From the IMG/VR virus record IMGVR_UViG_3300021414_000012, positions 1-26,087 of that record: DNA of 26,087 nt; one strand, 5' to 3'. The DNA is from a virus. Below, in pieces: positions 1,809 to 25,913 of the stretch. The notes under the pieces were generated by a model. The model saw only the letters and a program-made list of their open reading frames with translations. It did not search any database and was not told where the DNA came from. Positions within the stretch are counted from its first letter, which is position 1, and each line of letters opens with the position of its first letter. The position numbers and the translations under genes are program-made.

Positions 1809-1828
1809 AAAAAAACCGCTCGAGGCGG
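1809..1828 (-). terminator. Weak sense-oriented terminator-like hairpin before holin
   Basis: On the minus strand CCGC-CTCGA-GCGG is followed by seven Ts (1815-1809). The stem is only 4 bp, so termination may be partial. It lies between the end of the papain-like gene (1860) and the holin start (1787), in the direction of late transcription. Confidence 0.4.
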
Positions 1829-1859
1829 CCTGGTTTGCTGGTTTCTGGTGCTGTGCGGC

Positions 1860-2360
1860 TCACGCGCGCATCAGTTCTGACTTGGGGTAGTCGACCATGT
1901 GCAGGTCGATCGGGCGGACCCGCTTCATCATCGCCGGGTCGAACAGCCGGGTTCCGCCGGCGACAACGATAGCGAAGGTCAGATCGGAGCACCACCACCG
2001 GTCATCGTCGGCCCAGTCCACCGAGTAGGTGAGCGGTATGCCGACGGCGCCGCGGAAGTCGTACTTCTTGGGCTTAGCCGGCGGCGGCGGTGCGCACTGC
2101 GCTTCGGCGAAGGCGCGCGCTGCGTCGACGTCGGGCACGATCACGTGCATGTCTCGGTAGACCACGATGCCTTCCATCAGCTGGTCGACCGTACCCGCCC
2201 GGCAGCCATGCACCATCGACGCCTCATAGGCGCGGTCGCCAATGATCGTGATCGAGTGCGAGAACTGGCGCGAGCCAGCGCAAACCCCGACAGCCAGGCT
2301 GAGCGGGTTGTACGGCCACCGGCTGGTGAGCCGGACCGTGACAATTCCTGAGCGCTTCAT
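1860..2360 (-). CDS. Phage permuted papain-like (NlpC/P60 superfamily, YiiX-like) putative hydrolase
   Basis: A 166-residue protein. A His in FSHS (about His35) precedes a Cys in WWCSDL (about Cys124), with a YDFRG motif (about 100-104) between them. The His-before-Cys order is that of the circularly permuted papain-like/YiiX branch of the NlpC/P60 fold, which often occurs near tail genes or lysis cassettes. The usual phage motif is CSEL; here the Glu is Asp. The probable role is cleavage of a peptidoglycan or amide bond during DNA entry or lysis, which I infer. The start is ATG 2360, not the TTG three bases upstream, because AAGGAGG sits at the right distance, inside the last codons of the upstream gene. 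Stop and start overlap as TGATG. Confidence 0.6.
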   Translation of the reverse strand: MKRSGIVTVRLTSRWPYNPLSLAVGVCAGSRQFSHSITIIGDRAYEASMVHGCRAGTVDQLMEGIVVYRDMHVIVPDVDAARAFAEAQCAPPPPAKPKKYDFRGAVGIPLTYSVDWADDDRWWCSDLTFAIVVAGGTRLFDPAMMKRVRPIDLHMVDYPKSELMRA

Positions 2361-3646
2361 CAAACCTCCTTGAAAGTAATGCTGGTTGTATAGGCGGCCG
2401 CGTACTTCAGGGCGATCGCACTGCTTTTCGACCTTGTTGCATAAAGCATGTGGGCGCGTTCGCGGGACGGATCGAGGTCATTCGGGAAGCCGCTGACCAG
2501 CAGCGGGTAGACAGCGCTGTTGCGCGCCATGCCCATCACTGCAGCGCGGTCCGGCTCCTCCATGTAGGTGAGGTCGATGCTGACCTCGCCCGAAATGAAG
2601 CCCACCTCGCCGCATGTGTCACCGCCGCCGGTGGTCACGTATTCCGAGCCGTCAAGAGGCGTCACCGATATCGCCGACGCGTTGTACTTCGGTGACCAAT
2701 ACGGGGCGGCCACCATGCAGGCCGCCTCGAGGTAGCCCTGTACGTTGCCTGGGTCGGCGATGTCGACCGCGAGCCCGAGCGCCGCAATCTCGGTCGGCAG
2801 CCAGTGGCGCGCGTAGGTGCCGCCGCCGTAGGCGTAGGCGCTCGCAGCCTGGGCCGCGGTGTAGCCGCGCAGCTTGGCCGCCGGCCACGGGCAGGCCGGC
2901 ACCATGCCGCTGTCGTAGTCATAGCTCTGCCAGGCATCGATGAAGCCAGCCGTGCGCGCCGCCGCCGCGCTAGCCGTCGGGATGTGGCTGGTGCAGACGG
3001 CGCCCGTCTCAAGTTGGGCGCCCCAGGCTTGGATGTCACGCGCGGTGGCGCCGCCGGTGGTCGTGATCGCGAAGTTCGCCGACGTGGATGTCTTTCCGGA
3101 CGCCTGCAGCCGCTGCCAGGCGGTGCTGAGCACGAACAGCTGGTCGATGCCGCCGGCCGTCACCGTGATCGTCTGCCCAGCGACACCCTTGACCCAAACC
3201 GACCCGGAACAGGCCAGGCCCGTGCCCAGGCCCGTGCCCTGCGACACAGACTGGCCGGAGCCAGAGAACACCAGGCGCTGGGCAGTGTTTGTGCCATCCG
3301 GTGCGGCGCCGTAGTTCGCCGTCACCGTGACGCCGGTCTTGGTCCAGGCGGCGTTATCGAACGCCGCGGAGTAGCGCACCAGGTTCGTGGCGGCCGCCTC
3401 GCTGCTGGCGCGCACCCGCATCATGGCCGTGGGCGACCAGTTGCAGAACGGGAAGCCGGTGAACTGGATCGGCTCGGGCGTGGCGAACAGCGCCGTGATG
3501 CGCGCACTGGTGCCGGTGGCGCGCCAGAAGCTCGACTTCTTCCAGTTAGCCAGGTTCGCCGCGGCCAGTGCGCCGGCGGTGCTCGACGCGGTCAGCGCCG
3601 TGGCGCGCTCGAGCGCGTTGTCCGAAACGATTCTCAGGTTTGGCAT
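2360..3646 (-). CDS. Virion/tail protein with inserted carbohydrate-binding-like domain
   Basis: A 428-residue protein that I read as three parts. An N-terminal segment (1-85, begins MPNLRIVSDNALERAT) and a C-terminal segment (about 228-428, with the GYLEAACMVAAPYW and TYMEEPDRAAVMGMARN blocks) resemble a family of small phage tail-associated proteins. Between them lies a Thr/Gly/Ser-rich beta region (about 87-225, TNLVRYSAAFDNAAWTKTG then an AQRLVFSG block). It resembles the jelly-roll, carbohydrate-binding-like domains common in phage fibres. Position downstream of the fibre and fibre-assembly genes supports a virion or host-contact role. ATG 3646 has AGAGGA at about 5 nt. The exact function is unknown. 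Confidence 0.55.
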   Translation of the reverse strand: MPNLRIVSDNALERATALTASSTAGALAAANLANWKKSSFWRATGTSARITALFATPEPIQFTGFPFCNWSPTAMMRVRASSEAAATNLVRYSAAFDNAAWTKTGVTVTANYGAAPDGTNTAQRLVFSGSGQSVSQGTGLGTGLACSGSVWVKGVAGQTITVTAGGIDQLFVLSTAWQRLQASGKTSTSANFAITTTGGATARDIQAWGAQLETGAVCTSHIPTASAAAARTAGFIDAWQSYDYDSGMVPACPWPAAKLRGYTAAQAASAYAYGGGTYARHWLPTEIAALGLAVDIADPGNVQGYLEAACMVAAPYWSPKYNASAISVTPLDGSEYVTTGGGDTCGEVGFISGEVSIDLTYMEEPDRAAVMGMARNSAVYPLLVSGFPNDLDPSRERAHMLYATRSKSSAIALKYAAAYTTSITFKEV

Positions 3647-3655
3647 GCGTCCTCT

Positions 3656-4222
3656 TTACCAAGTGATTGCTGCTATTTCTTCGGGTGTCGCCGCCACCGC
3701 AAGCGTCGCTTTCAGCTGCTGCGCGCGCTTGAAGTGGGCTGTACCGCGCTCGGCGATGGCCAAGGTGAAGGCCTTCCAAGTATCGACATCGGGCAGCGGC
3801 ACCCAGCGGTTGCTAATGGCCTTCCAAGCGCCGGGCCAGTCCGCCCATGTCGGCATGGTGTTGGTCAACGTCACCCAGTTGTGCACGGCCTGGATCTCGA
3901 TGCGGTCCGAGTCCTTGAACGAGATTTGCTCGCCGGCGAACTCGAAATAGGTGTTGTTCGCCTCCAGCTTCCAGGCGTTTATGGCGCGGCTTCTGTCGGT
4001 GCGCAGCTGTTCAAGTGGCGCGGTTTCGACCCACTCCAGGTGTCCATCTACGACAAAGAGTTCCTGGGTCGGTGAGCCTTGCCCGGACCAGTCGAAAGGG
4101 CCTGGAAGCGCCAGATAGTCGAAGGCTTGGTCGAACGGATTGCCCTGAATCGGGTGCTCGACAATCATGCACTGGTTGACGCGCCCGGTTTCCGGCTCGT
4201 ACTCAGCAAAAGATTCGATCAT
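3656..4222 (-). CDS. Tail fibre assembly-like protein, DUF4376 domain
   Basis: A 188-residue protein. The N-terminal part (1-75) is acidic and fibre-assembly-like. The C-terminal part (about 76-188, starts RSRAINAWK and includes the DSDRIEIQAV and WKAFTLAI blocks) has the look of the DUF4376 domain found in phage proteins encoded directly after fibre genes. It probably helps fold or attach the upstream 585-residue fibre. Start ATG 4222 overlaps the fibre stop as ATGA, so the pair is translationally coupled. No signal peptide or membrane segment is visible. The domain assignment is from recognition only. Confidence 0.62.
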   Translation of the reverse strand: MIESFAEYEPETGRVNQCMIVEHPIQGNPFDQAFDYLALPGPFDWSGQGSPTQELFVVDGHLEWVETAPLEQLRTDRSRAINAWKLEANNTYFEFAGEQISFKDSDRIEIQAVHNWVTLTNTMPTWADWPGAWKAISNRWVPLPDVDTWKAFTLAIAERGTAHFKRAQQLKATLAVAATPEEIAAITW

Positions 4223-5976
4223 GCTGGCGTCCCAAGGTTGACATTGACAATGAACGACACTTTCGCGAGCCGGTTGTTGGCGTCGATGCCGCTGCCAGTA
4301 ACCACTGCTTTGAGGTTGACGTTATTGCCGGCGGCGGTCACGGTCACGGTGCTGGTGCCGTCGCCGGAAATTTTGAGGAAGTTGACGCCATCGCCCACGT
4401 CTCCGGTGATGACCCATGACACGGCGCTGTAAGGCCCGGTGCCCCCGGAGAACGTCAATGTTCGGCTCCCGAGAGTGCGGGTGCCGCTGGCGAAATTGCC
4501 CGTCATTGAGCCAGCATTAAGGGACGCCGAGAATGTAGACAGGATGGCGGTTGCCGCCCCGTTGGCATTTGCTTCAATGGTCGTTGCCGGAGTGCTGCCC
4601 ACATTCGTGCCGGCAGGAGCGCCGACAGTCGCCCCGAGCGCATGCCGCCCGATCCACAGACCGTTTGCACCGAGATAGTTTCCAGTGAACCCAGGTGGCC
4701 CGTCCTGTTGTAGCCAGGGTGTAGCCGCAACAGCCCCTGCTGGAACAGTCAATACGCCCTCGACCAGTCCAAATCCCTGCCCAGGTGACCTATAGCAAAC
4801 TTGGCAATACATGGCGACATTGTTCTTGTCGTACGCAACCACGCCAAACGCACACGTGAAGCCTGTGACCAGCGCATTTAGGTTCGCGAGGAAGTACAGT
4901 TTTTCGCCAGGAGTTACCGGGAATTTATTGCCGCTCTCAATTACATCGCGCGCGACAGTAGTCAGCTGATTCTTATACGAGGTCCCTGCTGACGATACCG
5001 CCTCGACGAACCCGCTACTCCAAGTGCCCAGCGAACCATCCTCGAATGTCCCCTTCTTGACGAGATTCGAAACATCGTAGGGACGGCCGGTCACGCTGTC
5101 GTAATTTGCGGTCGTGGCAGACTTCGCCGCGATCGCGTTGAGCAAGGCCTGCTTCGCATCGAAGTAGTTCTTGAAGTTTGTCCGATAGGTCGCGCCCACG
5201 ATGCTGATCGTCGACCCTGGGATGGTCGCGAAGCCCGCCCCCAGACCGCCGATGTAGGTGCTGAGCGCGTTGTAGGAGTTCACATAAGCAGTACGCTCGG
5301 CGTCGATCCCGAGCGCCGCGGCCTGGGCGTCAATCCCGGGCCGCTCGCCAACGACTGTTATCCACCGCAGATTTTCCGACGGCTTCTCGGCAGGCGACAG
5401 CAGATCGTCGCGCGTCATATCGCTGATCGCGACGTTGGCGGCGTCTGCCACGCCCTGCGCCGTCGCTGCCGCCTGCGCCGCGGAATCAGCCGTGCTTTTT
5501 GCTGCGGCCGCGTTCGCCTGGATGGTGGCGGTGATCTTGTTCAGGAGTGCCTGACGCTTCGCGTACACGTCCGCGAACTTCGCCCGGAAGTCTGCACCGA
5601 CGATGTTGACCGTCGAGCCGGGGATCGTGTTCCACCCTGCCAAGGTGCCGAGATAGGTACTCAGCGCGGTAACCGCTGCGGTATATGCTGTTTTTTCGGT
5701 CGTTATCGACAGGCCAGTGGCTTGAGCCTCGATGCCAGCTTGTTCGGCCAGGATCGCGTCGCGCTTGGCGACGGCTTCAGGCTTCTCGCTCGGCGTGAGT
5801 TTGCTATCGCTGGCGATGTCCTCCAGTAAAGCATTCGCCGTGGCCGCAGCCTGCGCGGCGGCGTCAGCGGCGCCCTGGGCGGCACCAATGGCAGAGGCAA
5901 GCGCAGCATTCGGATTGACAAAGCGAATGACAGATCCCTGCAGCAGCGCGTCGCAGTCGTTCAGTACTCCGCTCAT
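4219..5976 (-). CDS. Tail fibre / receptor-binding protein with duplicated module
   Basis: A 585-residue protein with several visible parts. An N-terminal Ala-rich helical segment (about 23-50) probably anchors it to the tail. Two copies of a roughly 95-residue helical module follow (about 53-148 and 184-283), each with L(T/S)P(S/A)EKP, TIPGST and a QALLN ending; this module is common in gpJ-like and fibre proteins. A beta-rich region starts at about 303 (NLVKKGTFEDG), with a jelly-roll or carbohydrate-binding look, to about 455. A C-terminal Ig-like Ser/Thr/Gly-rich domain spans about 485-585. DNA for residues about 305-440 is clearly poorer in G+C than its surroundings, suggesting a separately acquired receptor-binding part. 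It starts at ATG 5976, overlapping the hub gene stop as ATGA. Confidence 0.68.
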   Translation of the reverse strand: MSGVLNDCDALLQGSVIRFVNPNAALASAIGAAQGAADAAAQAAATANALLEDIASDSKLTPSEKPEAVAKRDAILAEQAGIEAQATGLSITTEKTAYTAAVTALSTYLGTLAGWNTIPGSTVNIVGADFRAKFADVYAKRQALLNKITATIQANAAAAKSTADSAAQAAATAQGVADAANVAISDMTRDDLLSPAEKPSENLRWITVVGERPGIDAQAAALGIDAERTAYVNSYNALSTYIGGLGAGFATIPGSTISIVGATYRTNFKNYFDAKQALLNAIAAKSATTANYDSVTGRPYDVSNLVKKGTFEDGSLGTWSSGFVEAVSSAGTSYKNQLTTVARDVIESGNKFPVTPGEKLYFLANLNALVTGFTCAFGVVAYDKNNVAMYCQVCYRSPGQGFGLVEGVLTVPAGAVAATPWLQQDGPPGFTGNYLGANGLWIGRHALGATVGAPAGTNVGSTPATTIEANANGAATAILSTFSASLNAGSMTGNFASGTRTLGSRTLTFSGGTGPYSAVSWVITGDVGDGVNFLKISGDGTSTVTVTAAGNNVNLKAVVTGSGIDANNRLAKVSFIVNVNLGTPA

Positions 5977-7475
5977 ACGAGGAACCCTACTTTGACGCGC
6001 CCAGTGTTCCAGTCAGGCGCGAGTGAAATAACGATGCCCGGCACGCCGGCGGCCATGCCGAAGCGCGGGTTGTAGACGGTGACGGCCTGGCCGAGTTCGA
6101 GCTGCAGCAGTTCGGGCACGCCGTCGAACTCGTATGTGGTACGCGGCACCTTCCAGAGGTCGAGCCGCCGCTGCGCCTCCGCCCCCGCGTCCGCGCGCGT
6201 CAGCAACATTGTGTCCTGCTGCACCGGTTCGGCGTTCAACCTGAACTTGGCCAGCGTCGCAGCATCGGACTTGGTCGTGGTTCGCCATTCGGTGGAGAAC
6301 AGATCCTTGTGCCGATCGGGAAGGCCGGCCAGCGTGCCAGCCTCCTGCACGGTCCAGTTTTTGCAGAAGCCCAGCTTGACCGCGCCGACGGCAGCTGTGC
6401 GGCCGGTCGGCTGCAGCGTGCTCTCGCCTTGCTTTGTGTGGACGACGTGCTCGGGCCCGATGACGAACGGAGTGCCCACGCCTGGAAGTGCAAGCTGCAC
6501 GATCCGGAGCAGGCCGAGGCGGGACATCACCAGCTGAGCGCCGAGGCTGCCAGCCAGCATTTGACACGCGGTAAGCACGTTCAACCTATCAGATGAATAC
6601 AGGCCGACACCCTGTTGGTGACCCGAATCAAAGGTGGAAAAATTGACCAGGTCGATGTCGGCATCGCTGAACCGGTCGGACGCCTTGCCATAGGCAGTGA
6701 CGATGCGCTTGATGATCGGCGCCACGGTTTCCCGGTATCCGCCGACGTTGTCGCCCCGGAACGAGACTGTCACGGCGCCGGCCGGCTGATCGCCCAGGGT
6801 GAACGTACCCCCTGCAGGGTTCGTCGTGTACTCGCCGCCGATCAGCGGCGCGCCGTTGTCACGCGGCTCGATGATGCCCTCGCTCGATCCATCATGCCCC
6901 TGATAGTCGAGCGTCCCCGTGCTCGTGCGCAGCGGCGTCACGTTGAACACTTGGCCGAAAGCGACAGGCCGGAGCGCGTCCTGGTTCTCCCCGGTTCCGC
7001 CCAGCTTCGCTTCGCTGATCGGGGTGTTCAGGCGCTGCAGCTTGTCGCGCAGCTTCAGGGCCAGCTTGCTGCGGCCGCGCGGCGCAATGTCGGCCACGAT
7101 GCCATTGAAGATCATGCGGAAGTCCGCGCGCGGCCAGCGCACGTCGCCGATGTAGGCCTTGATGGAGCGGTTGGCCCAGACGTAGCTGGTGCCGGCCCAG
7201 GCATCACGCTCACCGCCGATGTTGTCGATCTCCAGGTCGCCAGCCGAAAGCGAGCCGTCACCTTCGAGCAGCAGCCTCTCGGTGAACAGCGTGCCGACGG
7301 TAGCGATCGGGAGATAGGTCGTGTTGGCCGGCGCCTCGCCGGGGCCGGTGGTGAATGGTTTCGTCGCCAAGTAGACGACGGACTCCACGCCACCGATTTG
7401 CGGCGCCACCTCGATGAGGACGCAACGACGCGCAGCCTGGCTTTTCAGCCAGTCCGTAAATTGAGCATCAGTCAT
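5973..7475 (-). CDS. Tail hub / distal tail tip protein
   Basis: A 500-residue protein encoded directly after the tape measure gene (ATGA overlap at 7475), the usual place for Dit/Tal-type hub proteins. It belongs by recognition to a family of phage tail proteins with a conserved N-terminal half: DWLKSQAARRCVLIEV near the start, a VGTLFTERLLLEGDGSLS block (about 60-78), WANRSIKAYIGDVRWPRADF (about 100-119) and a LKLRDKLQRLNTPISEAKL block (about 141-159). The rest is beta-rich and lacks any enzyme motif I recognise. The likely role is to close the distal tube end, hold the fibre and open on binding. The C-terminus ends in a beta hairpin-like WNTGRVKVGFLV. An exact Dit or Tal equivalence cannot be set from sequence alone. 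Confidence 0.66.
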   Translation of the reverse strand: MTDAQFTDWLKSQAARRCVLIEVAPQIGGVESVVYLATKPFTTGPGEAPANTTYLPIATVGTLFTERLLLEGDGSLSAGDLEIDNIGGERDAWAGTSYVWANRSIKAYIGDVRWPRADFRMIFNGIVADIAPRGRSKLALKLRDKLQRLNTPISEAKLGGTGENQDALRPVAFGQVFNVTPLRTSTGTLDYQGHDGSSEGIIEPRDNGAPLIGGEYTTNPAGGTFTLGDQPAGAVTVSFRGDNVGGYRETVAPIIKRIVTAYGKASDRFSDADIDLVNFSTFDSGHQQGVGLYSSDRLNVLTACQMLAGSLGAQLVMSRLGLLRIVQLALPGVGTPFVIGPEHVVHTKQGESTLQPTGRTAAVGAVKLGFCKNWTVQEAGTLAGLPDRHKDLFSTEWRTTTKSDAATLAKFRLNAEPVQQDTMLLTRADAGAEAQRRLDLWKVPRTTYEFDGVPELLQLELGQAVTVYNPRFGMAAGVPGIVISLAPDWNTGRVKVGFLV

Positions 7476-12205: not shown

Positions 12206-12218
12206 GTGTCGGCCCGAT

Positions 12219-12240
12219 AAAAAAGCCACCCGTAGGCGGC
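12219..12240 (-). terminator. Sense-oriented terminator before tape measure gene
   Basis: On the minus strand GCCGCC-TACG-GGTGGC forms a 6-bp stem with one G-U pair and a tetraloop, followed directly by TTTTTT (12224-12219). The tape measure ATG follows only 13 nt later. It points along late transcription. Confidence 0.6.
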
Positions 12241-12277
12241 GAAGTGATTTCTCGCTTAGCTGCTGACAAATGTTGCA

Positions 12278-12598
12278 TCAGTGCTTGGAAGCGGATTCGA
12301 GAGCGATCCGGTCGAACATCTGGAGGACCTCGAGCTCCCATTCAGTGAAGCGAACGCGATACAGCGACTGGTACGCCTGGATGCCGACCATGGTGATTGG
12401 CCCGATCCCTTCCATCACTGGCTGGCGATCGAGCCGCTTGAAGGCCTCCCACAGGGGGAGGCCCAGCTTCGGCCACTGGATGCTCAGGCGAGGATCGACC
12501 TCGCCCGTGTTTTTTGCCACACGCTGCAGGTGGGCCCGTAGTGTGGCGCCGTCACCTTGCCGAGCCAGAAGCTCGTACTCGGCCCGGCAGCACTCCAC
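12278..12598 (-). CDS. Second tail assembly chaperone ORF (gpT-like)
   Basis: A 106-residue ORF between the first chaperone ORF and the tape measure gene, the place of lambda gpT. It opens with GTG 12598, sharing one base with the TAG of the upstream ORF (TAGTG). It has no clear ribosome binding site, so it is made by re-initiation or as a -1 frameshift fusion. Its frame stays open upstream to a TAA at 12635-12637, leaving a window in which a ribosome could shift. The product has the features WPKLGLPLWEAFKR and FTEWELEVLQMFDRI, helical and without membrane segments. In lambda the gpG-gpGT fusion brings tube subunits to the tape measure. Function is assigned by position. Confidence 0.66.
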   Translation of the reverse strand: MECCRAEYELLARQGDGATLRAHLQRVAKNTGEVDPRLSIQWPKLGLPLWEAFKRLDRQPVMEGIGPITMVGIQAYQSLYRVRFTEWELEVLQMFDRIALESASKH

Positions 12599-12634
12599 TA
12601 GGCTTTCGCGGAGTCCGTGATAAAAAGCTCGGTC
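12598..12634 (-). promoter_or_regulatory. Candidate -1 frameshift window between chaperone ORFs
   Basis: Between the -1 frame TAA (12635-12637) and the zero-frame TAG (12598-12600) the two frames overlap for 12 codons. The only slippery run is five Ts (12622-12626) within zero-frame CTT TTT ATC. A tRNA-Phe on TTT could slip one base back onto TTT and then read TAT. This is not a canonical XXXYYYZ heptamer. Confidence 0.35.
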
Positions 12635-13053
12635 TTACGGATGCCGGCGAGCACTTGGGCGCGCAGCCACTGCTTTTTCGGGTCGGTGTACAGGGCGCGG
12701 GCGTTCGCTGGCGAGAACTCGATCGGCACGCCGCCGCGGGTCAGGTTCCAGCCCAGCGTCGACGCCACCAGGTAGTCGGTTTCGTCTTCGATGTCGTCCA
12801 GCGGGTCGGTGGCGTTGAGCTTGCCGTTGTTGGCGAACTCGGCGCGCAGGCGGCGCGTGCGGGCCAGGTCGATGCGTTTGCGCGATTCGTGCTCCGGGCT
12901 GGCCAGTTCGATGACGGAGCTGGTGGGCGCACCGGTCTTCGGATCGGTCAGGGTCAGCTTGCCGACGGCGATGTCTTCGTAGGCGTCGATGTCCAGGGTG
13001 TCGACCAGTTTGTACAGCAGGTTCGAAGGCTGAGCGGTGTTCATGGTGTTCAT
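12598..13053 (-). CDS. Tail assembly chaperone (gpG / Mu gp41-like)
   Basis: A 151-residue protein that follows the tail tube gene and precedes the tape measure, the standard chaperone position. Visible blocks are YEDIAVGKLTLTDPKTG (about 27-43) and RKRIDLARTRRLRAEF (about 62-77), with a Trp-containing GWNLTRGGVPIEFS block (about 106-119). They fit tail-assembly chaperones that bind the tape measure during tail building. It starts at ATG 13053 behind AAGAGAAA; a second in-frame ATG at 13044 is the alternative. The stop TAG overlaps the GTG of the next ORF. Near its 3' end the codons CTT TTT ATC include a run of five Ts that may allow -1 slippage. Confidence 0.72.
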   Translation of the reverse strand: MNTMNTAQPSNLLYKLVDTLDIDAYEDIAVGKLTLTDPKTGAPTSSVIELASPEHESRKRIDLARTRRLRAEFANNGKLNATDPLDDIEDETDYLVASTLGWNLTRGGVPIEFSPANARALYTDPKKQWLRAQVLAGIRKTELFITDSAKA

Positions 13054-13075
13054 GGTTTTCTCTTTCGCGAGTGGT

Positions 13076-13131
13076 AAAAAATGTGCCCGCGCCGGCCGCC
13101 GCTCCCGCGAAAGGAGACAGCGGCCCGCCGG
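13076..13131 (-). terminator. GC-rich hairpin with T6, between tail tube and chaperone genes
   Basis: A long GC-rich inverted repeat has outer CCGG arms at 13092-13095 and 13128-13131 and inner CCGCT/AGCGG arms. On the minus strand it is followed, after about 10 nt, by TTTTTT (13081-13076). A second short hairpin, GCCGC/GCGGC (13142-13156), lies just past the tail tube stop. The gap between stem and T tract makes termination uncertain; the structures may instead stabilise the abundant tail tube mRNA. Confidence 0.35.
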
Positions 13132-13164
13132 TGCCTGGGTTGCCGCACAAAGCGGCGAAAGGGT

Positions 13165-14376
13165 TTAAGCGGCCGAGTCCTGCACCGAAATGGTGGTCAG
13201 GTCGGTGGCCGCCGCGGCGCCGCCGGCAGTGTTCAGCAGCGCCTGGTACGGGATGGTCTGGATCAGGATCTTCTCGCCGTCGTCCTTGTCGGCGCCGTTG
13301 ACCTTCAGGCGGTTCATGCTGAACGCGATGAAGTCCGAGCTCGGCGAGTTGTCCGCCGTGAAGGCCAGGTAGGCCGACACTTCGGTCTCGTTGTAGAAAG
13401 CATCGCGCAGCGCGGTCGAATCGAACTTGGCCGTGATCTGACCGGTCACGATGACGCGGCCGGTGGCCACCTGCTCGGCGACGTTCGAACCGATGCCCGG
13501 CTCGCTCGATTGCGCGGCCGAGATCTCGATGCTCGCGCTCGTGATCGTGCCGCCGGTCGCGGTGCCGACCTTGACCACGCCGTTGACCGCCGCCATGGTG
13601 CCGGTGACGGTGACCGGCGTCGGGCTGGTGAAGTACTGGGCGCCGGTGCCGGCAGCGTCGCGGCCGGTGAACTCGACGGCGACGGTGGCCATGCCGGTTG
13701 CCGGCAAGGTGAACGTGACCTTCGACACCTTGCAGCCGGTGAACAGCTCGCTGGCCGGGACGTCCGGGTGCCAGTGCTCGATCGCGAACGATTTGTCGGT
13801 GTGCCCGGCCTGCGGGATCATCGTTTTCTTGCCGATGACGGCGACGGTTGCCGTGGCGATCGGGCCTTCGGTGACGAGCGCCGAGCCGTTCAGGACCACG
13901 CCAGTCAGCACCGTGGCGGTGAGCGCGGTGACCTGGACGTTCTTGTTCAGGTTCGCCGCGTTGAAACCACCGGCGGTGGCGCGCACCACGTCGCCGACCT
14001 TCACGCCGTCCGTCAGCCAGGAACCAGCGGCCCGGGTGAGGGTCCAGGCGCCGGCCGTGCCGCCGATCGTGATCGACACGCCTACGGCGCTGACGCCGGC
14101 GACGAAGTCCTTCTTCAGCGCCGCGGCGATGAAATCGGCATAGGTTTTGGCCGACAGATCGCCGCTGATCGAGCCGCCCACCTTGCGCAGGCCGTGCCGG
14201 AAGTCGGCGACCTGGAAGTCGGGGCGGATCTCGCCGGACTGATAGGTGTCTTTCGACAGGCTCAGCGACGAGCTGACCCGGCGCATCGATTGCGCGCTGG
14301 CCGCTGCCGGCGCGACGCCGTAGGTGGTCTCCGGTTTGTAGGTGACCTGTTTGTAAACTCCGCTTGCGATTCCCAT
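13165..14376 (-). CDS. Major tail tube protein
   Basis: A 403-residue beta-rich protein beginning MGIASGVYKQVTYKPETTYG, the usual opening of the siphoviral Phage_tube_2-type tail tube family. SLSLSKDTYQS and IRPDFQVADFRHGLRKVGGSISG (about 37-72) fit its conserved N-terminal core, and a QITAKFDSTALRDAFYNETE block lies near 325. The C-terminal half is Thr/Val/Ala-rich with possible Ig-like parts, giving a protein longer than the usual 150-300 residues. It assembles as stacked rings around the tape measure. ATG 14376 has a strong AAAGGAG at 5 nt, fitting a very abundant protein. A strong hairpin with T6 lies just upstream. Neighbours are the tail terminator gene and the chaperones. Confidence 0.86.
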   Translation of the reverse strand: MGIASGVYKQVTYKPETTYGVAPAAASAQSMRRVSSSLSLSKDTYQSGEIRPDFQVADFRHGLRKVGGSISGDLSAKTYADFIAAALKKDFVAGVSAVGVSITIGGTAGAWTLTRAAGSWLTDGVKVGDVVRATAGGFNAANLNKNVQVTALTATVLTGVVLNGSALVTEGPIATATVAVIGKKTMIPQAGHTDKSFAIEHWHPDVPASELFTGCKVSKVTFTLPATGMATVAVEFTGRDAAGTGAQYFTSPTPVTVTGTMAAVNGVVKVGTATGGTITSASIEISAAQSSEPGIGSNVAEQVATGRVIVTGQITAKFDSTALRDAFYNETEVSAYLAFTADNSPSSDFIAFSMNRLKVNGADKDDGEKILIQTIPYQALLNTAGGAAAATDLTTISVQDSAA

Positions 14377-14393
14377 GTTTCTCCTTTGGGCAT

Positions 14394-14425
14394 AAAAAAG
14401 CCCGCAAGCGGAAAGCGTTGCGGGC
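14394..14425 (-). terminator. Strong sense-oriented terminator before tail tube gene
   Basis: On the minus strand GCCCGCAA (14425-14418) and TTGCGGGC (14407-14400) form a perfect 8-bp stem around a 10-nt loop. Six Ts (14399-14394) follow directly. The AAAGGAG ribosome binding site of the tail tube gene begins a few bases downstream. Confidence 0.72.
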
Positions 14426-14444
14426 GGGTTTGAAGTGGGTACTG

Positions 14445-17902: not shown

Positions 17903-17903
17903 G

Positions 17904-18839: not shown

Positions 18840-18842
18840 GGC

Positions 18843-19262: not shown

Positions 19263-19269
19263 GTGGTCC

Positions 19270-19557
19270 TCAATTATTCGTTTGGCCGCCGGCGCCGGGC
19301 GCCGACAGCTCGATTGTTTTCATGCGCCCGCGCCGCTCGAGCATCACCGTGGTGACGCCGCTTGCGCGCAGCAGGTTGAGCATCGATTCCCAGGTCTCGC
19401 GGTCGGCGATGCCATGGGCGCCACTCAGGTAGACGACTTGGTCGTTGAGGTGCGTGACGGTGACGATTGCGCGGTAAGGCAATCGTTTTTCGTAGCCGCC
19501 TGGCTGGTCGTAGGCGCGGATCTCGGAAGTTCGCGTGCTCATTTCCAGGTGGATCAT
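19270..19557 (-). CDS. Small unknown head-region protein
   Basis: A 95-residue protein whose true start is ATG 19557, because GGAGG lies 5 nt upstream; the frame is open further back but that part is arginine-rich antisense-like sequence. Predicted strands ([19 protein letters not shown]) and the [18 protein letters not shown] end resemble a small phage family of unknown function found beside head genes. No enzymatic motif, signal peptide or membrane segment is seen. It lies between the 53-residue gene and the putative decoration gene. Confidence 0.6.
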
Positions 19558-19580
19558 GTCGACCTCCAGGCGCCTGCGGA

Positions 19581-19742
19581 TTACTTCAGCGATTCGGCGT
19601 ACGCGACGGCGGCAGGGTCGGTGTCGACCACGCCGGCCAGCGCCTTGACTTCTTTTTCGTCGATCTCGATCACGTCGTCGCACTTGCCATAGGCGCCATC
19701 GACCAGCACGCGGCCCTTCAATTTTTTAGCTTCGGTTGCCAT
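19581..19742 (-). CDS. Small post-capsid protein, DUF7210-like
   Basis: A 53-residue protein starting at ATG 19742, chosen because AGGAG lies 6 nt upstream; the longer frame has no such signal. The sequence KGRVLVDGAYGKCDDVIEID followed by KEVKALAGVVDTD has the pattern of tiny SH3-like phage proteins (DUF7210-type) in which a short beta-barrel ends with a helix near Ala-Gly-Val-Val. They occur directly after capsid genes. A head-assembly or decoration role is plausible but unproven. Confidence 0.62.
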   Translation of the reverse strand: MATEAKKLKGRVLVDGAYGKCDDVIEIDEKEVKALAGVVDTDPAAVAYAESLK

Positions 19743-19796
19743 GTTGTTCTCCTGATGAGGTTGGGCGGCCAGCACCACGCCGGCCGCCGGATTTGA

Positions 19797-21044
19797 TTAC
19801 GACGCGCTGTTCTGGTAGTACTTGATCGCGCCGCCGATATCGACCATGTTCGCGCCCGAACGCTGGAAGGCGAGGAAGCCGACCTGGCCCTTCTCGGTGT
19901 ACTTCGAGTCGGTCATGCGGAACACGGTCAGATCCATCACGTCGCGGATCAGGTACTTCGAGAAGTCGCCGAACAGGATCGACTTGGCGTTCGCCGCCAT
20001 CACCGGCATGTGCTGGTTGATGATGATCTCGCGACCCATCAGGCGATCAGGCGCGCCGCCCGGGTTGCCCTGCTCGTAGCCCGGCACGAAGATCGGACGA
20101 CCATTGCCGTCCTTGAGCTTGCGGAGGACCTTCAGGGTGTCGTCGTGCATCATCCATTTGGCCGTCGCACGGTAGTACGGGTCAACCGAGTGCTCCAGGT
20201 CAACCAGGTCGTCGTAGGTGACGGTCAGGGTCTGGCCGGTGGCGCCCACCTTGCCGGCGCCGGACGCGGTCACGATGCCGCGCGGCTGCGCGGTGCCGGT
20301 GCCCACGGTGTGGTGGCGGTTCTGGATGCGGCCCAGGCGCAGCTGCAGCAGGCTCTGGATGTAGGCCTCGAGGTTGAACATCGAGTCCTGGATCAGTTCG
20401 AACGGCAACGCGATCGACTTCGACGAGTACTTGTACACGTCCATCGATGCCTGGCCGAAGCCGGTCTCGCCGAGGTTTGCGGGGGCGCTTTGGCCGACGA
20501 TTTCGCCTTCTTCCGAGGTCGAATCGGCCGTCGGGAACAGCATCTGGGCACCAGTCGAGGTCTGGATGTTGCTGGCGACATTGCGCACTGCGAACGCGGC
20601 CTTCATGGCCTGGATCAGCGTCTTGTTGAACTCGGTCGCGACGGTGTAGCCGCCCTCGGAGCCAGTGGTGGTCGACATCGCGGCGCGGATGTCGTGGTTC
20701 ACGCGTGCGTTCATCGCGCTGCGCTGTGCAGCGCTCAGGTTCGACAGGCCACCGGCCAGCATGGCGCGCAGCGCGGCGCTTTCATCTGCGTCGCGCGCGC
20801 CACCACGGGCAGCGGCCTGCATCGCGGCGTCGTGCTGTGCCTCGGGGTTTTCGCCAGCCAGCTGCGCGATGCGCTGTTCGCGCGAGATCTCGGCGTCGAT
20901 CGCTTCGACTTCAGCCAGGAAGCCGTCCAGCTGGGCAGCTTCTGCGGCCGGCATGCGCTGGTCGGTCGGGTACTTGTTGTTCAGGTCGTGGACTTTTTTG
21001 GCCGCGGCGTCGCGTTGGGCGCGCAGTTGGGCGAGCTTGCTCAT
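19797..21044 (-). CDS. Major capsid protein, HK97 fold
   Basis: A 415-residue protein with the HK97 gp5 layout. An N-terminal charged coiled-coil scaffolding delta domain (about 1-115, LAQLRAQRDAAAKKVHDLN and later EVEAIDAEISREQRIA) is followed by a loop with AMSTTTGSEGGYTVATEF (about 122-139) where the mature protein should begin. The body includes the SMDVYKYSSKSIALPFELIQDS E-loop and strand region, GTGTAQPRGI, and GREIIINQHMP before the GQVGFLAFQRSGANMVD end. The upstream ClpP-like protease would remove the delta domain. No separate scaffold gene is visible, which fits. ATG 21044 has AAAGG about 10 nt upstream. A strong hairpin with T7 separates it from the protease gene. Confidence 0.95.
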   Translation of the reverse strand: MSKLAQLRAQRDAAAKKVHDLNNKYPTDQRMPAAEAAQLDGFLAEVEAIDAEISREQRIAQLAGENPEAQHDAAMQAAARGGARDADESAALRAMLAGGLSNLSAAQRSAMNARVNHDIRAAMSTTTGSEGGYTVATEFNKTLIQAMKAAFAVRNVASNIQTSTGAQMLFPTADSTSEEGEIVGQSAPANLGETGFGQASMDVYKYSSKSIALPFELIQDSMFNLEAYIQSLLQLRLGRIQNRHHTVGTGTAQPRGIVTASGAGKVGATGQTLTVTYDDLVDLEHSVDPYYRATAKWMMHDDTLKVLRKLKDGNGRPIFVPGYEQGNPGGAPDRLMGREIIINQHMPVMAANAKSILFGDFSKYLIRDVMDLTVFRMTDSKYTEKGQVGFLAFQRSGANMVDIGGAIKYYQNSAS

Positions 21045-21094
21045 GTGGGTAGTGCCTTTCGGTGGTTGGTCCGCTCTCGCGGCCGGGGTGGGCG

Positions 21095-21118
21095 AAAAAA
21101 ACGCCGCTCGAAAGCGGC
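21095..21118 (-). terminator. Strong sense-oriented terminator between protease and capsid genes
   Basis: On the minus strand GCCGCT-TTCG-AGCGGC forms a perfect 6-bp stem closed by a UUCG tetraloop, followed after one G by seven Ts (21101-21095). It lies between the protease stop (21140) and capsid ATG (21044) and points along late transcription. Confidence 0.75.
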
Positions 21119-21139
21119 TGGTTTAGTGGCGCGAGAGCG

Positions 21140-21898
21140 TCAGCTAACTTTTCTGCGGGCCATCATGCTGATGCGTTGCATTTGGCGCGCGCGGTGTTCT
21201 TCGGTGGCAGCAGGGTCGAGCTGCTCCGGCTCCTTGTTCTCGATCTTCGGCGCCTTGGCATAGGCGCTCATGTTCCAGGAGGCCTCGGCCTTTTTGCCCA
21301 CGGCGATGCGGTCGACCAGGCCGGCCGCGACAGCTTCGTCCGCCGTGTACCAGGTCTCGGCATCCATAGCGGCGCGCACGTCGTCGACGGCCATTCCGCT
21401 CTTCTGCGAATACTGGCCGGCCAGGCTGCTGTCGATTTTCCCGAGCAGGACGGCGGTGGCGGTCAGGTCGTTCGCGTTGCCCATCGCCCAGGTCCAGGCG
21501 TTATGGATCATGAAAAACCCGCCGGGGGCGATCTCGACCTCGTCGGCCGCGATGGAGATCACGGTCGCTGCGCTGGCGGCGTAGCCGTCGATGTGGGCGA
21601 TCACCTTGGCGCCGGTGTCGCGGATCGCCTGGCAGATGGTCTGCGCGGCGAAGACGTCGCCGCCCGGGCTGTTGATGCGCAGGTGGATCGTGCCGCCCTT
21701 GATGTTGCGGATAGCCGGCACCAGGGCCTCGGCCGAAACGCCGCCCCACCAGTACGCGGTGTCCTCGTCGGCAACGATCGCGTCGTAGATATAGATCTCG
21801 GTCTCGCCACCGTCCGCGCTCGCGACAATGCGCGATTGCGGCAGCCGGTCAGGCCGCTTTTTGTTGCTCGCCAGGAGCTGGGTCAGACTTTTCGGCAC
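21140..21898 (-). CDS. Prohead protease, ClpP-like (S14)
   Basis: A 252-residue Clp-type serine protease. The catalytic Ser is in GYAASAAT (about Ser109), His in FMIHNAW (about His132), and an acidic residue in DAETWYTADEA (about 179-181) sits where ClpP has Asp171. HLRINSPGGDVFAA (about 72-85) forms the oxyanion region. Phage members process the capsid delta domain during head maturation. The C-terminal 50 residues are Lys/Glu/Ala-rich and are probably an assembly tail. It starts at GTG 21898, strongly supported by GGAGG 5 nt upstream, and overlaps the portal gene by 50 bp. Position between portal and capsid fits. Confidence 0.92.
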   Translation of the reverse strand: MPKSLTQLLASNKKRPDRLPQSRIVASADGGETEIYIYDAIVADEDTAYWWGGVSAEALVPAIRNIKGGTIHLRINSPGGDVFAAQTICQAIRDTGAKVIAHIDGYAASAATVISIAADEVEIAPGGFFMIHNAWTWAMGNANDLTATAVLLGKIDSSLAGQYSQKSGMAVDDVRAAMDAETWYTADEAVAAGLVDRIAVGKKAEASWNMSAYAKAPKIENKEPEQLDPAATEEHRARQMQRISMMARRKVS

Positions 21899-23156
21899 TG
21901 TTGCCTCCGTTCATTTTCAAATTGGTGTTCGGCGGCATGTTCTCCAGCCGGCGGATTTCGTCAGCGGTCATGAACGGCATCTCGCCAGCGCGCCCCAGGG
22001 CGATCCGATACCCCTCGTACCGCGCCTTAATGTCGCCGCGCTCGAGCGCAGCTGTGATGTGTTCGACGAAGTACTTCTGGCGGACCGGCCAGAGCTTGCT
22101 GTTCAATTCCTGCTGGATCGGGGTCAGGTGCCGCTGCAGCGTGTAGCGTACGAAGCTGGCGCCTTGCTCTGCAATGCCGCTTCCCTGACTGGATTGCTTT
22201 TCGGTGTGGCCGACCATGTGCGGCGGCACGCCGAATATCCGGCAGATTTCCTCGACGGTGAACAGCCGGGTCGCCAGGATTTCGGCATCCTTCGAATTCA
22301 CGCTCAGCTGCGCTGGCACCAGGCCGCCGCCGAGGATCAGGGGGCCGCGGCCACCGTTCTGAGCGCGCGCGATCAGCGATGCCTTGAGCAGCTGCATCTG
22401 CTTTTCGTCGAGTTTCTTTTCCGATTTGAGGGCGTAGTCGAAGTTGGCGCCGCCCGAGAAGAATTTGCCCGCGTGATCCTGGGCGGCCAGCGCGGTGCCG
22501 ATCGCCTCCAGGGCCGCGTAGGTCAGCGGGCTCGGACTGGTCAGGCCGTCGAAGCCGAGACTGGGCAGGTGGATCACGTCGGCTCGGTTCAGGACATACG
22601 ATGGCTTGTCGCCCGGGCTGATGCGGTAGTAGACCTCGCTCCCATCCTTGAAAGGCTGCACCGTGTGGCGCGGCAGAGGCTTCCAGCCGATCACCCGGTT
22701 GCTGTGAAAGCCTGGCCGAATCCACTCGCCAAAGCCATCGCCATGCGACAGCTTCGAGAGCATGATCGCCTCCCAGGCTGCCGAGGCGGTCCAGCCGTCG
22801 GTCGCCTTTTCGTTCAGCATCCACCAGTAATCGTGGTCGGCCGAATCGCGGTCGTTGCCGGTACGCTGAAACACGCCGACCGGCAGGGTAGCAATCGCGC
22901 CGGCGACCAGCGCCATGCAGCCGTAGGCCGCCGAAACGCGCATTGCGGTCTCAGCCGTCACCGCGGCGCCGGACGACGACCGATGTGCGGCGCCCAGCAG
23001 GTTGGCCAGCTCGCCCATTTCCAGGGCGCTGTGCGAGTTCTCGCCCAGGGCCACGACGCCGGCGCGTTCGGCCGCGCCGTCTCGACCGGCCAGCCAGGAG
23101 CCCAGCACGCGCGATTCCTGCCGCGAGGCCTCCAGGTTCAGTAGTTTTCCGGTCAT
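21849..23156 (-). CDS. Portal protein, HK97 gp3-like
   Basis: A 435-residue protein of the HK97 portal family. Visible blocks are AMRVSAAYGCMALVAGAIATLPVGVF (about 66-91), WWMLNEKATDGWTASAAWEAI (about 110-130), a DVIHLPSLGFDGLTSPSPL block (about 193-211) and FGVPPHMVG (about 315-323) before the conserved RYTLQRHLTPIQQELNSKL. It forms the dodecameric vertex ring through which terminase packages DNA and to which the connector binds. The stop of terminase and this ATG overlap as TGATG. The C-terminus (NGGNSAEKSDPAPGEQQK) is charged and overlaps the protease start. Length is normal. Confidence 0.93.
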   Translation of the reverse strand: MTGKLLNLEASRQESRVLGSWLAGRDGAAERAGVVALGENSHSALEMGELANLLGAAHRSSSGAAVTAETAMRVSAAYGCMALVAGAIATLPVGVFQRTGNDRDSADHDYWWMLNEKATDGWTASAAWEAIMLSKLSHGDGFGEWIRPGFHSNRVIGWKPLPRHTVQPFKDGSEVYYRISPGDKPSYVLNRADVIHLPSLGFDGLTSPSPLTYAALEAIGTALAAQDHAGKFFSGGANFDYALKSEKKLDEKQMQLLKASLIARAQNGGRGPLILGGGLVPAQLSVNSKDAEILATRLFTVEEICRIFGVPPHMVGHTEKQSSQGSGIAEQGASFVRYTLQRHLTPIQQELNSKLWPVRQKYFVEHITAALERGDIKARYEGYRIALGRAGEMPFMTADEIRRLENMPPNTNLKMNGGNSAEKSDPAPGEQQKAA

Positions 23157-24868
23157 CAGTAGTCCATAACGTAAATTTCAGGCGCGTCCGGGGTCTCGGG
23201 GTCGAGCGCCATCAGGGAGACTGCATTGAACAGCGCCATCAATGGGTCGATCTTTCCGGTGCCCGAAGCCTGCTTGGTGATCAGCGCCGCGTTCCCGCGG
23301 GGTTCGACCTTCGCGTTTCCGACGCACCAGGTCATGAGCGCCTGGCCGCCGTGCACGAGCACGCCCTCGGCAAGCTTCCGTTCCGCGACGCTGATCGGGC
23401 CGATCAGCTTCCAGCCCTGCGAGATCCCGAAGCACTTCGACTCGTCGATCTCGGCGTCGACCAGGGCCTGGAACATGACCTTGTGGGTTTTCTCCGGGTC
23501 GAGTCCGACCGAGGCGAGCAGCCCGCTGTCGTCAACCTGCTTAACGAGCGCGGCCACCGCGGCGACGTCGCCGGGAAGTTCCGGGATGATCACCAGGTCG
23601 CCTTGCTGTTCGAAGTCGCTGTATTTGGTCTCTTCGCTCTTGCGGCGCTCGATGGCGATTGGGTGGATAAACGCCCGGGTCCAGGCGAGCCACTTCTTCG
23701 TGCCGCGCTCGCGGCCCAGGGCGGCAAAGCCTAGCAAGTCATCCAGGCCGCCGCCGTCGATGCCGACAGTGACCACCTCGCACCGATCGAGCAGCTGCTC
23801 GAGTGTCAGGCCCGGGATCTTTGCTTGTTTCTCCCAGAAATCCGCTCCGGCCCACCGATCGGCGCGCAGGTTCATGCCGATCTGCACGTTCAGGTGCTTG
23901 GCCAGGAATTTCTGCAGCGAGCCGTCGGTCTTGTGCTCCAGTTTCTTGAGCTGGTCCTCCAGCCATTCGAGGCTGACCGAGCGACCCAGGTTCGGATTCG
24001 TGATGTAGAACGTTGACGAGTCGAGGTAGGCTTTCGCCTTCAGCATCTTCGCCGGGTACTCGTAGAGCACGCCAAGCGACTTTTGATCGTGGATCTTGCC
24101 GTCGCGGACGTCGCGGTAGTAATCGAGCTTTTCCTTGAACACGCCGGCCGGCGGCTCGTCGCTCTGTGTCGTCAGGTAGATGACCCAACCTTCGTCGCGC
24201 GACACCTGGCCGCCAAGCGCCTCCATGAACATGGCGCCAGCATTTGCGCGCTTGCCGAACAGCCAGTGCTCGTCGACCAGCACCTTGCCGGACTTCTTGC
24301 CCGAAACGGTATCGGTGTCGGCCGCGACGACTTTCAGCGACGCGCGCGAGACCAGATGCGTGATCGTCCGGAGGTGGTCAGCCACATGAAACAAGGCGCT
24401 GAGCTCAGGATCGGCGCGCACCATCGCGGCAGCAGGAATAAAACTGTTCCCTGCCACTTCCTTGGTCGGCGCAAGGATCAGGTGCTCTTCTCCCTCGCGC
24501 CAGCAGAGGATCAAGGCCGTCAGCATGATGCCGGCGGCGATGGTCGACTTCGTGTTCTTTTTGCTGATCAGAAGGTAGTACTCGCGGATCAGCTGCTTGC
24601 CGGTTTCAGCGTCGTACCCACCGAAGATCGCAGCAACGAAATCGAATACAAATTCATCGCTGCACTCGCCAAAGTTCGGGCTTCGGTACTCGCCCAGGAC
24701 CTCGTCCCAGACGCTCTTCGGCAGGTCGGTAACCTGCAGGAGTTTGAAGATGGCGAGCGCTTGCTCGGCCTGGTCGGGAAAAATCGGGGGCGGGATGATG
24801 GAGTCGCCATTGATGAGGCGCTGCTCCCAGTCGAGACAGGCTGTCGTCCATGCTGGCGTCGCACCCAT
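23156..24868 (-). CDS. Terminase large subunit, HK97-type (Terminase_1)
   Basis: A 570-residue packaging motor. The ATPase part has a Walker A-like SKKNTKST (about 102-109, Lys107), Walker B VLVDEH (about 196-201, Asp199/Glu200) and coupling motif TTQSDE (233-238). The RNase H-like nuclease part has VGIDGGGLDD (Asp371, Asp376, Asp377), VGLDPE (Asp457) and KIDPLMAL (Asp541). The atypical Walker A, lacking the GxxGxGK form, is normal for phage terminases. It cuts and pumps DNA into the prohead through the portal. It starts 2 nt after the small subunit stop, with AAGG about 8 nt before ATG 24868. Confidence 0.95.
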   Translation of the reverse strand: MGATPAWTTACLDWEQRLINGDSIIPPPIFPDQAEQALAIFKLLQVTDLPKSVWDEVLGEYRSPNFGECSDEFVFDFVAAIFGGYDAETGKQLIREYYLLISKKNTKSTIAAGIMLTALILCWREGEEHLILAPTKEVAGNSFIPAAAMVRADPELSALFHVADHLRTITHLVSRASLKVVAADTDTVSGKKSGKVLVDEHWLFGKRANAGAMFMEALGGQVSRDEGWVIYLTTQSDEPPAGVFKEKLDYYRDVRDGKIHDQKSLGVLYEYPAKMLKAKAYLDSSTFYITNPNLGRSVSLEWLEDQLKKLEHKTDGSLQKFLAKHLNVQIGMNLRADRWAGADFWEKQAKIPGLTLEQLLDRCEVVTVGIDGGGLDDLLGFAALGRERGTKKWLAWTRAFIHPIAIERRKSEETKYSDFEQQGDLVIIPELPGDVAAVAALVKQVDDSGLLASVGLDPEKTHKVMFQALVDAEIDESKCFGISQGWKLIGPISVAERKLAEGVLVHGGQALMTWCVGNAKVEPRGNAALITKQASGTGKIDPLMALFNAVSLMALDPETPDAPEIYVMDY

Positions 24869-24870
24869 CG

Positions 24871-25182
24871 TCAGACCTTCTTACCGCCGGCCGCAGCCAG
24901 CCGCGGCGCCGTGGCCTGGGCAAAGCGCCCCGCCACTTTTTTAGCGTCCTCGTTCTTCTGGTCCTTCTTCCCGCCCTCGCCCAGCTTCTTGTGCATAAAC
25001 GGCATCAGGGCACGCGCTGCGCCGACGCGCAGTTTCGCGTCGGCGCCGGTGTCGTTCATCACCGCCTTGAGGAAATCGATCGGGTCGCTGTACTGGACCG
25101 CCAGCGGCAGCACAGCGGGTTCTTTCTTCGGGCGGCCAGCACCCGGACGGGCACCGCCGCTCCGGCCTGGTTGACCTGCCAT
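24871..25182 (-). CDS. Terminase small subunit (putative)
   Basis: A 103-residue basic protein directly before the large terminase gene. It begins MAGQPGRSGGARPGAGRPKK, the Gly/Arg-rich AT-hook-like opening of many HK97-type small subunits. A helical core (about 33-68, DPIDFLKAVMNDTGADAKLR then VGAARALMPFMHKKLG) follows, with a Lys-rich tail. It should recognise the packaging start and regulate the large subunit. The ATG 25182 has only a weak GAAAGA upstream. The assignment is by pattern and position. Confidence 0.8.
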   Translation of the reverse strand: MAGQPGRSGGARPGAGRPKKEPAVLPLAVQYSDPIDFLKAVMNDTGADAKLRVGAARALMPFMHKKLGEGGKKDQKNEDAKKVAGRFAQATAPRLAAAGGKKV

Positions 25183-25302
25183 TTGAATTCTTTCGAAAAG
25201 GGGGATTTAATCTGCACGTGGGTGGGGAGTCGGTGTCTGTCCGGGACGCCCCAAACGTTCGATACCCCCCCGTTGCGATTATGCAACAATGTTGCTTGAT
25301 GG
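25183..25302. other. 120-bp gap between HNH and terminase genes; possible cos region
   Basis: No ORF is credible here. The stretch has GTTGC (25272-25276), GCAAC (25283-25287) and GTTGC (25291-25295); the last two form a 5-bp hairpin with loop AAT. In cos-type phages with an HNH next to terminase, the cos site is often close by, so this is one candidate place. That is inference from layout. Confidence 0.3.
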
Positions 25303-25629
25303 CTATCTTCCTGCCCGTTCGGCCGTCTCGCGGGCCGACTTCGCATCGTGATGCTCGCGACACAGCATTTCCTTGTTGCTGTCGTCATCGCTGCCGCCTT
25401 TCCACAGCGGCTTGATGTGGTCGACGTCGGTGCCGATGCCGATGTGCTCGCGGCGTTCGCGCTTGCACTGCTGGCACTGACCTTCGTCGCGCTGACGGAT
25501 GCGCTCGCGATCCTTCACGCCAGACCAGCCGCGCTTGCGCTCAACGATGTCGGCGCGGAGCGGCTGCGATGGGGTGATGCGGCTGCGCGCCATCTGTAGG
25601 CTGGACTTCAACGTTTGCAGCTTCGGCAT
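25303..25629 (-). CDS. HNH endonuclease (packaging-associated)
   Basis: A 108-residue HNH protein. Two zinc knuckles are visible: CQQC (Cys52, Cys55) and CREH (Cys90, His93). The catalytic block is TDVDHIKPL (His71), with Asn85 in SNKEM and His94 in REHHDAKS completing the H-N-H set. The frame is open far upstream, but I start it at ATG 25629 because the MPKLQTLKSS opening is typical of this phage family and it lies 10 nt after the previous stop; no strong ribosome binding site is seen, and ATG 25593 is an alternative. HNH proteins beside terminase genes are required for cos cleavage or packaging in HK97-like phages, which is the likely role. It is unlikely to be a free homing endonuclease given this conserved context. 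Confidence 0.84.
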   Translation of the reverse strand: MPKLQTLKSSLQMARSRITPSQPLRADIVERKRGWSGVKDRERIRQRDEGQCQQCKRERREHIGIGTDVDHIKPLWKGGSDDDSNKEMLCREHHDAKSARETAERAGR

Positions 25630-25639
25630 CTGAATAGTC

Positions 25640-25873
25640 TTAGCGGTTGTATCGAGGCAGCCCTGGCGTATTCGCGAAGGCAGCGATCGCCTCGGGTGAG
25701 AAGGGCGGCCAGTCGCAGCTAAGGTGGTAAGCGGTGCGCTCCATGAACTTGGCATGAGCAACGTTGACTCGGTGTCGCATCCATCTATCGAATTCCGATT
25801 CCTCGGCCTGCAGCGCTGCTTGTTCGCAGCTGGACCGCATGACGAAGTGATGCGAGACCGAGTTGACGCCCAT
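25640..25873 (-). CDS. Small unknown protein upstream of HNH
   Basis: A 77-residue protein starting MGVNSVSHHFVMRSSCEQA, helical in the middle (ESEFDRWMRHRVNVAHAKFMERTAYH) and ending DWPPFSPEAIAAFANTPG. I do not recognise it. The start ATG 25873 is supported by GAGG about 5 nt upstream. It ends 10 nt before the HNH start and follows a hairpin with six Ts, making it the first gene after a terminator-like signal. The reading frame is clean and the spacing gene-like, so it is probably real. Confidence 0.6.
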   Translation of the reverse strand: MGVNSVSHHFVMRSSCEQAALQAEESEFDRWMRHRVNVAHAKFMERTAYHLSCDWPPFSPEAIAAFANTPGLPRYNR

Positions 25874-25888
25874 GCGTACCTCAGGAAG

Positions 25889-25913
25889 AAAAAAGCCCGG
25901 CAGTTAGCTGGGC
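25889..25913 (-). terminator. Sense-oriented terminator before first small late gene
   Basis: On the minus strand GCCCAGC-TAACT-GCCGGGC forms a 7-bp stem with one A-C mismatch, directly followed by TTTTTT (25894-25889). The start of the 77-residue gene lies 15 nt further on. It may end the upstream transcript or be a site of antitermination. Confidence 0.6.

Follow-up and report, generated by a model that had tools for sequence, protein, structure and literature searches.

Six hairpins, each followed by a run of Ts and each placed ahead of a gene start, punctuate the late genes of the virus contig IMGVR_UViG_3300021414_000012, which was analysed over its full 26,087 bases (hereafter the window). 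They are best read, with reasonable but not strong confidence, as five intrinsic terminators within an antiterminated late operon together with a single cis-acting RNA pseudoknot element at the tail assembly chaperone (TAC) gene. The contig comprises the late half of a prophage of siphovirus type, with its genes on the minus strand, in the order HNH, TerS, TerL, portal, protease, major capsid protein (MCP), connectors, tail tube, TAC, tape measure, tail tip genes, holin and endolysin (an annotation that rests on profile matches), and its closest named relatives are Massilia prophages. As the initial annotation had described, all six sense hairpins with their six or seven Ts are present on the minus (coding) strand, and they precede the first small open reading frame (orf1) and the MCP, tail tube, TAC, tape measure and holin genes, respectively.

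Five of these sites combine a GC-rich stem with a directly adjoining U tract, above chance expectation. Scored with the d'Aubenton-Carafa formula, in our own implementation, whose values (d) serve for relative comparison, the terminator before orf1, the first late gene (25889..25913, minus strand, as are all sites described here unless noted; hairpin 25895-25913 and T6), reaches d=18.4, that at the protease/MCP junction (21095..21118; hairpin 21103-21118, GCCGCT-TTCG-AGCGGC, then G and T7) d=19, that before the tail tube gene (14394..14425; hairpin 14400-14425, GCCCGCAA..TTGCGGGC, then T6) d=25.1 and that before the tape measure gene (12219..12240; hairpin 12225-12240 and T6) d=21.1. The terminator before the holin (1809..1828; hairpin 1816-1828 and T7) is weak, with d=1.1. 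Only the site between tail tube and TAC fails as an intrinsic terminator, with d = -10.8.

The positions of these features are far from random. Six of the seven sense-strand runs of at least six Ts fall in gaps, and these non-coding gaps amount to 1010 of the 25733 bases (3.9%) of the late region (binomial P ~2.5e-8). A chance origin of the gap hairpins is also rejected by 60 dinucleotide shuffles, in which the five gap hairpins with d>0 are matched by a mean of 0.18 (maximum 2). The hairpin signal is thus one of position, not of total count; a generic terminator consensus scan over whole stretches gave no clear excess (12 versus 11.7; 20 versus 11.9), and position and homologous junctions were therefore used instead. 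The sites had been proposed to mark the main real gaps of the gene array, which holds in that the six T runs lie in gaps, but they are not the only ones: the HNH-TerS gap of 120 nt has no terminator, and the 54-nt gap between MCP and the next gene, with a T-less hairpin at 19764-19788, had been missed. In most loci some 20-60 nt separate the terminator from the next gene start. No convincing local promoter was found after any of the terminators, promoter-like matches in the window being not above chance, and the genes that follow are mostly core structural ones, so that the sites do not conform to morons (inserts made of promoter, gene and terminator).

The terminators are also conserved at homologous junctions. 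Window genes were located in as many as 105 related loci and the junctions scored as above, the resulting counts referring to loci that are related and not all independent, with gene starts assigned by similarity. A terminator with d>0 is found at the protease-MCP junction in 78/105 loci (78/80 where the gap is at least 40 nt), before the tail tube in all 48 of 48, before the tape measure gene in 27/43 and before the holin in 8/9, where it is often stronger than that of the window. The corresponding numbers are 16/53 at the tube-TAC junction and 2/40 after the MCP gene, and zero at the remaining junctions, including the long HNH-TerS gap (0/19); a gap by itself therefore does not yield a terminator. 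The stem of the capsid terminator varies with compensation (GCCGCC/GGCGGC, GCCACC/GGTGGC, CCCGCC/GGCGGG, GGAGCC/GGCTCC) down to 42% capsid identity, while 6-8 Ts are kept in most loci. The terminator-like character noted in the initial annotation is supported by this conservation and by the compensated stems, and the hairpins do persist in relatives while the sequence changes, the comparison that the annotation had proposed. A separate observation concerns the junction between TACb and the tape measure gene, where the loci L130, L120, L124, L134, L144 and L118 hold about 500 nt of extra sequence and a strong terminator precedes the start of the tape measure gene by about 22 nt.

The site ahead of the TAC gene is of a different nature, and the plain terminator suggested earlier for 13076-13131 does not describe it: it has a long, bulged stem, the trinucleotide ACA intervenes before the T run, and this run is often lost in relatives. 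The element spans 85 nt (13051-13135; covariance model R1 match, 95.7 bits). Its long hairpin (13085..13134) has a conserved stem, in which a bulged A and a bulged U are also conserved, and is followed by ACA and a T6 run (13076..13081), which lies between the hairpin and the ribosome-binding site (RBS), is variable and is missing in many relatives. The apical loop strand CTTTCGCG (13106..13113) is complementary at 8/8 positions to the strand CGCGAAAG (13062..13069), which lies on the edge of the Shine-Dalgarno sequence, a short distance before the TAC start codon, and the two strands covary across many lineages. Complementarity of loop and RBS strand is seen in nearly every locus, and in 71/71 aligned elements the distance from the end of the pairing strand to the ATG that follows is 7-14 nt. 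The mean cis pairing between loop and RBS strand is 8.63 bp, compared with a maximum of 8.50 in 1000 permutations; over 34 haplotypes it is 7.38, compared with a maximum of 6.71 among 2000 permutations. For the structure as a whole, 97.7% of cells are paired versus 38-50% when the alignment is slid, and none of 500 shuffles has as high a covariation score (0/500), the alignment used for the covariation counts having been fitted to the hairpin model and not to the pseudoknot. Compensated loop/RBS pairs among relatives include TTCGCGGG/CCCGCGAA, TTCGTGGG/CCCACGAA, TTCGTCGG/CCGACGAA and TTCGTAGGG/CCCTACGAA, as well as TTCAGCGG/CCGCTGAA, TTTCAGTGG/CCACTGAAA, CTTTCAGCAG/CTGCTGAAAG and TTTTGCAGGG/CCCTGCAAAA. 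Covarying pairing of loop and RBS strand is what an RBS-sequestering pseudoknot would show.

That the chaperone site is instead an ordinary terminator, or an inverted repeat in the DNA bound by a protein, is the least probable of the alternatives considered here. A T run does follow the stem in some members, and relatives of the L015/L083 type carry an ordinary terminator at this place, but many members have lost this run and yet retain a loop-RBS pairing that covaries along with the stem, and one strand is always found 7-14 nt before the start codon. In the latter type of junction (L015, L083, L031, L013 and similar loci, ~5.5-8 kb past the capsid gene) two hairpins are present, the second being the ordinary terminator, with ~5-9 Ts.

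Pseudoknots at ribosome-binding sites are known, for example in preQ1-I riboswitches. As in these, the pairing partner of the hairpin loop in the tube-TAC element is a strand at the Shine-Dalgarno sequence; in contrast to them, the element has no known ligand domain, a bulged stem of ~50 nt, an intercistronic site between tube and chaperone genes and no match to an Rfam family (at the gathering score or E<=1). No description of the tube-TAC RNA was found in the open-access literature.

The element is detected by the covariance model in 20/196 genomes of the Massilia family, 5/17 of the genus, 4/399 of the order and 0/369 of the class, in searches with rough E-values and, for the larger ones, strict filters. 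Among 75 pattern matches in viral contigs there are 30 more element loci, some of them repeating known loci. Neither a significant covariance-model match in lambda, HK97, KS9, PHB09, VarioGold or H4907 nor a blastn match over 50,697 phage records was obtained. The tail tubes encoded ahead of the element fall into at least three families (PF18906, PF08813, phrog_158; in the window, 13165..14376, PF18906 Phage_tube_2, 5e-32), and the chaperones encoded behind it into more than one (PF08748, phrog_313 and others; in the window, 12598..13053, phrog_313 tail assembly chaperone, 2.7e-6). Autoregulation by the tube or the chaperone protein is unlikely because neither neighbour is constant, and an effect exerted purely in cis, on the access of ribosomes or on the end of the tube mRNA, would fit better. 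In L194 and L222 the hairpin is found without the RBS strand, and in L194 an HNH-like gene follows and not a chaperone, as would follow from a role of the element at the chaperone RBS. Hairpin copies of this kind lie at 1501-1572 in L194, 3208-3279 in L222 and 1501-1557 in L195. The genome G151 has four copies of the element and so probably several carrier prophages.

In the mechanism proposed for the element, the apical loop would pair with the 5' edge of the chaperone Shine-Dalgarno sequence to give a pseudoknot, which may lower or time translation of the chaperone relative to the abundant tube protein and may also provide the tube mRNA with a stable end; translational control is probably its function. 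With slightly more confidence than doubt, we regard it as a new class of cis-regulatory RNA pseudoknot in siphovirus-type prophages of Burkholderiales, one that controls the tube-to-chaperone step whatever the protein families and whose partner is probably the ribosome or a host factor.

The five terminators are predicted to act in vivo and to be overridden by Q: an unmodified polymerase, for instance one engaged in leaky transcription in the lysogen, would stop at them, while a polymerase loaded at the late promoter and modified by a Q-type antiterminator would read through. The Q region lies beyond the end of the window, and the closest relative with upstream sequence is L025/L170 (TerL 96%), in which a Q-like open reading frame (L025:4091-4474; phrog_79, 4.2e-5) comes first, then a TTGACA promoter-like sequence, a pair of tandem terminators and orf1. 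A 185-aa reading frame in L170 was rejected as the Q candidate since it is in the wrong frame, and a search of solved structures with the Q-like protein yielded nothing significant. Tandem leader terminators are also present in L171, L174 and L175, and the terminator before orf1 in the window (25889..25913) is probably the second of such a pair. In H4907 an annotated antitermination protein is encoded upstream of the late genes. The L025/L170 layout of Q-like gene, promoter-like sequence, leader terminators and late genes resembles the lambda Q - pR' - tR' arrangement, with the differences that several further terminators lie inside the operon and that the Q-like protein is weakly similar and encoded outside the window.

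Passage of polymerase through such sites has precedents. GafZ lets polymerase pass a terminator inside the 14 kb gene transfer agent (GTA) cluster of Caulobacter (PMC11150451), and AlpA lets it pass intrinsic terminators in P. aeruginosa (PMC7969949). Both systems are alike to the present one in that intrinsic terminators in phage-like operons are bypassed by an antiterminator loaded at the promoter, and differ from it in that the antiterminators belong to other families and the terminators were tested mainly near the promoter or the first gene (PMC11150451, PMC7969949). In the GTA system an inserted terminator still lowered expression ~8-fold, so that antitermination by GafZ is incomplete (PMC11150451).

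This incompleteness favours the suggestion that the hairpins are partial attenuators, which step down or delay transcription and so set the dose or timing of each module, as the initial annotation had surmised. Such a graded set is nevertheless unlikely, because there is no gradient in the d values from one end of the operon to the other (18, 19, 25, 21, 1) and the blocks would precede, and lower, capsid and tube, the most abundantly needed proteins, with terminase and portal, the least needed, upstream of most sites. The hairpins might also be relics of module exchange or of moron insertion. At the junction between TACb and tape measure gene the identities are poorly correlated (0.40), several relatives have ~400-540 nt extra and yet keep the terminator 7-23 nt ahead of the tape measure gene, and HK97 has a moron here, in the same type of position as the extra sequence of L130, L120 and the other loci listed above with them. 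The correlation of identities across the hairpin is, in contrast, 0.89 for protease-MCP and 0.75 for tube-TAC, indicating no border at either; leftover borders, also raised earlier, are thus possible only between TACb and the tape measure gene, and as an account of the set they are very unlikely.

A further possibility, and a doubtful one, is that the hairpins serve chiefly as mRNA punctuation, protecting or separating cistron mRNAs as 3' end stabilisers or processing sites, such that capsid and tube cistrons bracketed by hairpins would be more stable. Capsid and tube genes of the window family are indeed preceded by a terminator hairpin and followed by a T-less one, and this largely holds for lambda and HK97 too. 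The MCP gene (19797..21044; phrog_10, 1.2e-73) is followed ~10 nt past its stop codon by the strong hairpin without T tract at 19764..19788 (GGCGGCCGGC..GCTGGCCGCC), and a strong stem-loop is predicted after MCP in all 27 distinct gaps listed for the relatives, the window included. Right after the stop codon of the tail tube gene there is a small hairpin (13142..13156; GCCGC-TTTGT-GCGGC), found in a subset of relatives, and in lambda or HK97 hairpins with no or short T runs come after the capsid and tube genes. The upstream hairpins, however, keep a T tract adjoining the stem, 6-8 nt in most loci, to 42% capsid identity, which counts against a stabiliser role because a stabiliser needs no T tract.

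Several observations weigh against the combined reading of terminators, antitermination and pseudoknot. Antitermination, invoked as context in the initial annotation, finds its support in the L025/L170 layout and in a Q-like match that is weak (PF06530 E=0.19), for which reason we only infer it, and phrog_79 is also matched in 9/14 control genomes. The terminator is missing in some relatives (Photobacterium-type, with a capsid gap of 13 nt). The pseudoknot often abuts the Shine-Dalgarno sequence instead of covering it (L182, L188), so that repression is not certain, and L137, L196, L222, L231 and L274 break or weaken the loop-RBS pairing. Read-through terminators under antitermination, and not dose attenuators, are still the most likely identity of the five sites.

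A terminator ladder is an already known kind of feature, as lambda, HK97 and other phages carry terminators at matching junctions. Under the same scoring, the capsid gene is preceded by a terminator in lambda (where it falls between D and E), KS9, PHB09, VarioGold and H4907; ahead of the tube gene there is a strong one in HK97, KS9, PHB09 and H4907 and a weak one in VarioGold. The HK97 GenBank record (NC_002167) annotates terminators, themselves only putative, before the tube, after the tube, before the tape measure and after the capsid genes, and its late operon is of the window's type. In contrast to the window, the capsid terminator of HK97 follows the gene, and its hairpin after the tube gene is a simple stem in place of a pseudoknot element. 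For the terminators of the window, conservation has here been measured junction by junction across many loci, and over divergent phages it provides a testable design rule, namely a terminator before capsid and tube and a hairpin after. The tube-TAC element matters more than the terminator set: it remains in the same gene context even though the flanking proteins change family, and it is relevant to the balance that phages strike between tube and chaperone, a matter so far discussed mainly in terms of frameshifting.

In this regard, TAC and TACb overlap at 12598-12640 in the -1 frame, like lambda G/GT, with the -1 frame open for ~40 nt only and no canonical slippery heptamer for a -1 frameshift found in the overlap. 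The HNH-TerS gap (25183-25302, 120 nt), which lacks a terminator, contains CAACATTGTTGCATAATCGCAACGGGGGGG and might be a cos region. At the end of the contig, a tRNA-Pro gene on the plus strand (15-91) marks a possible prophage attachment site.

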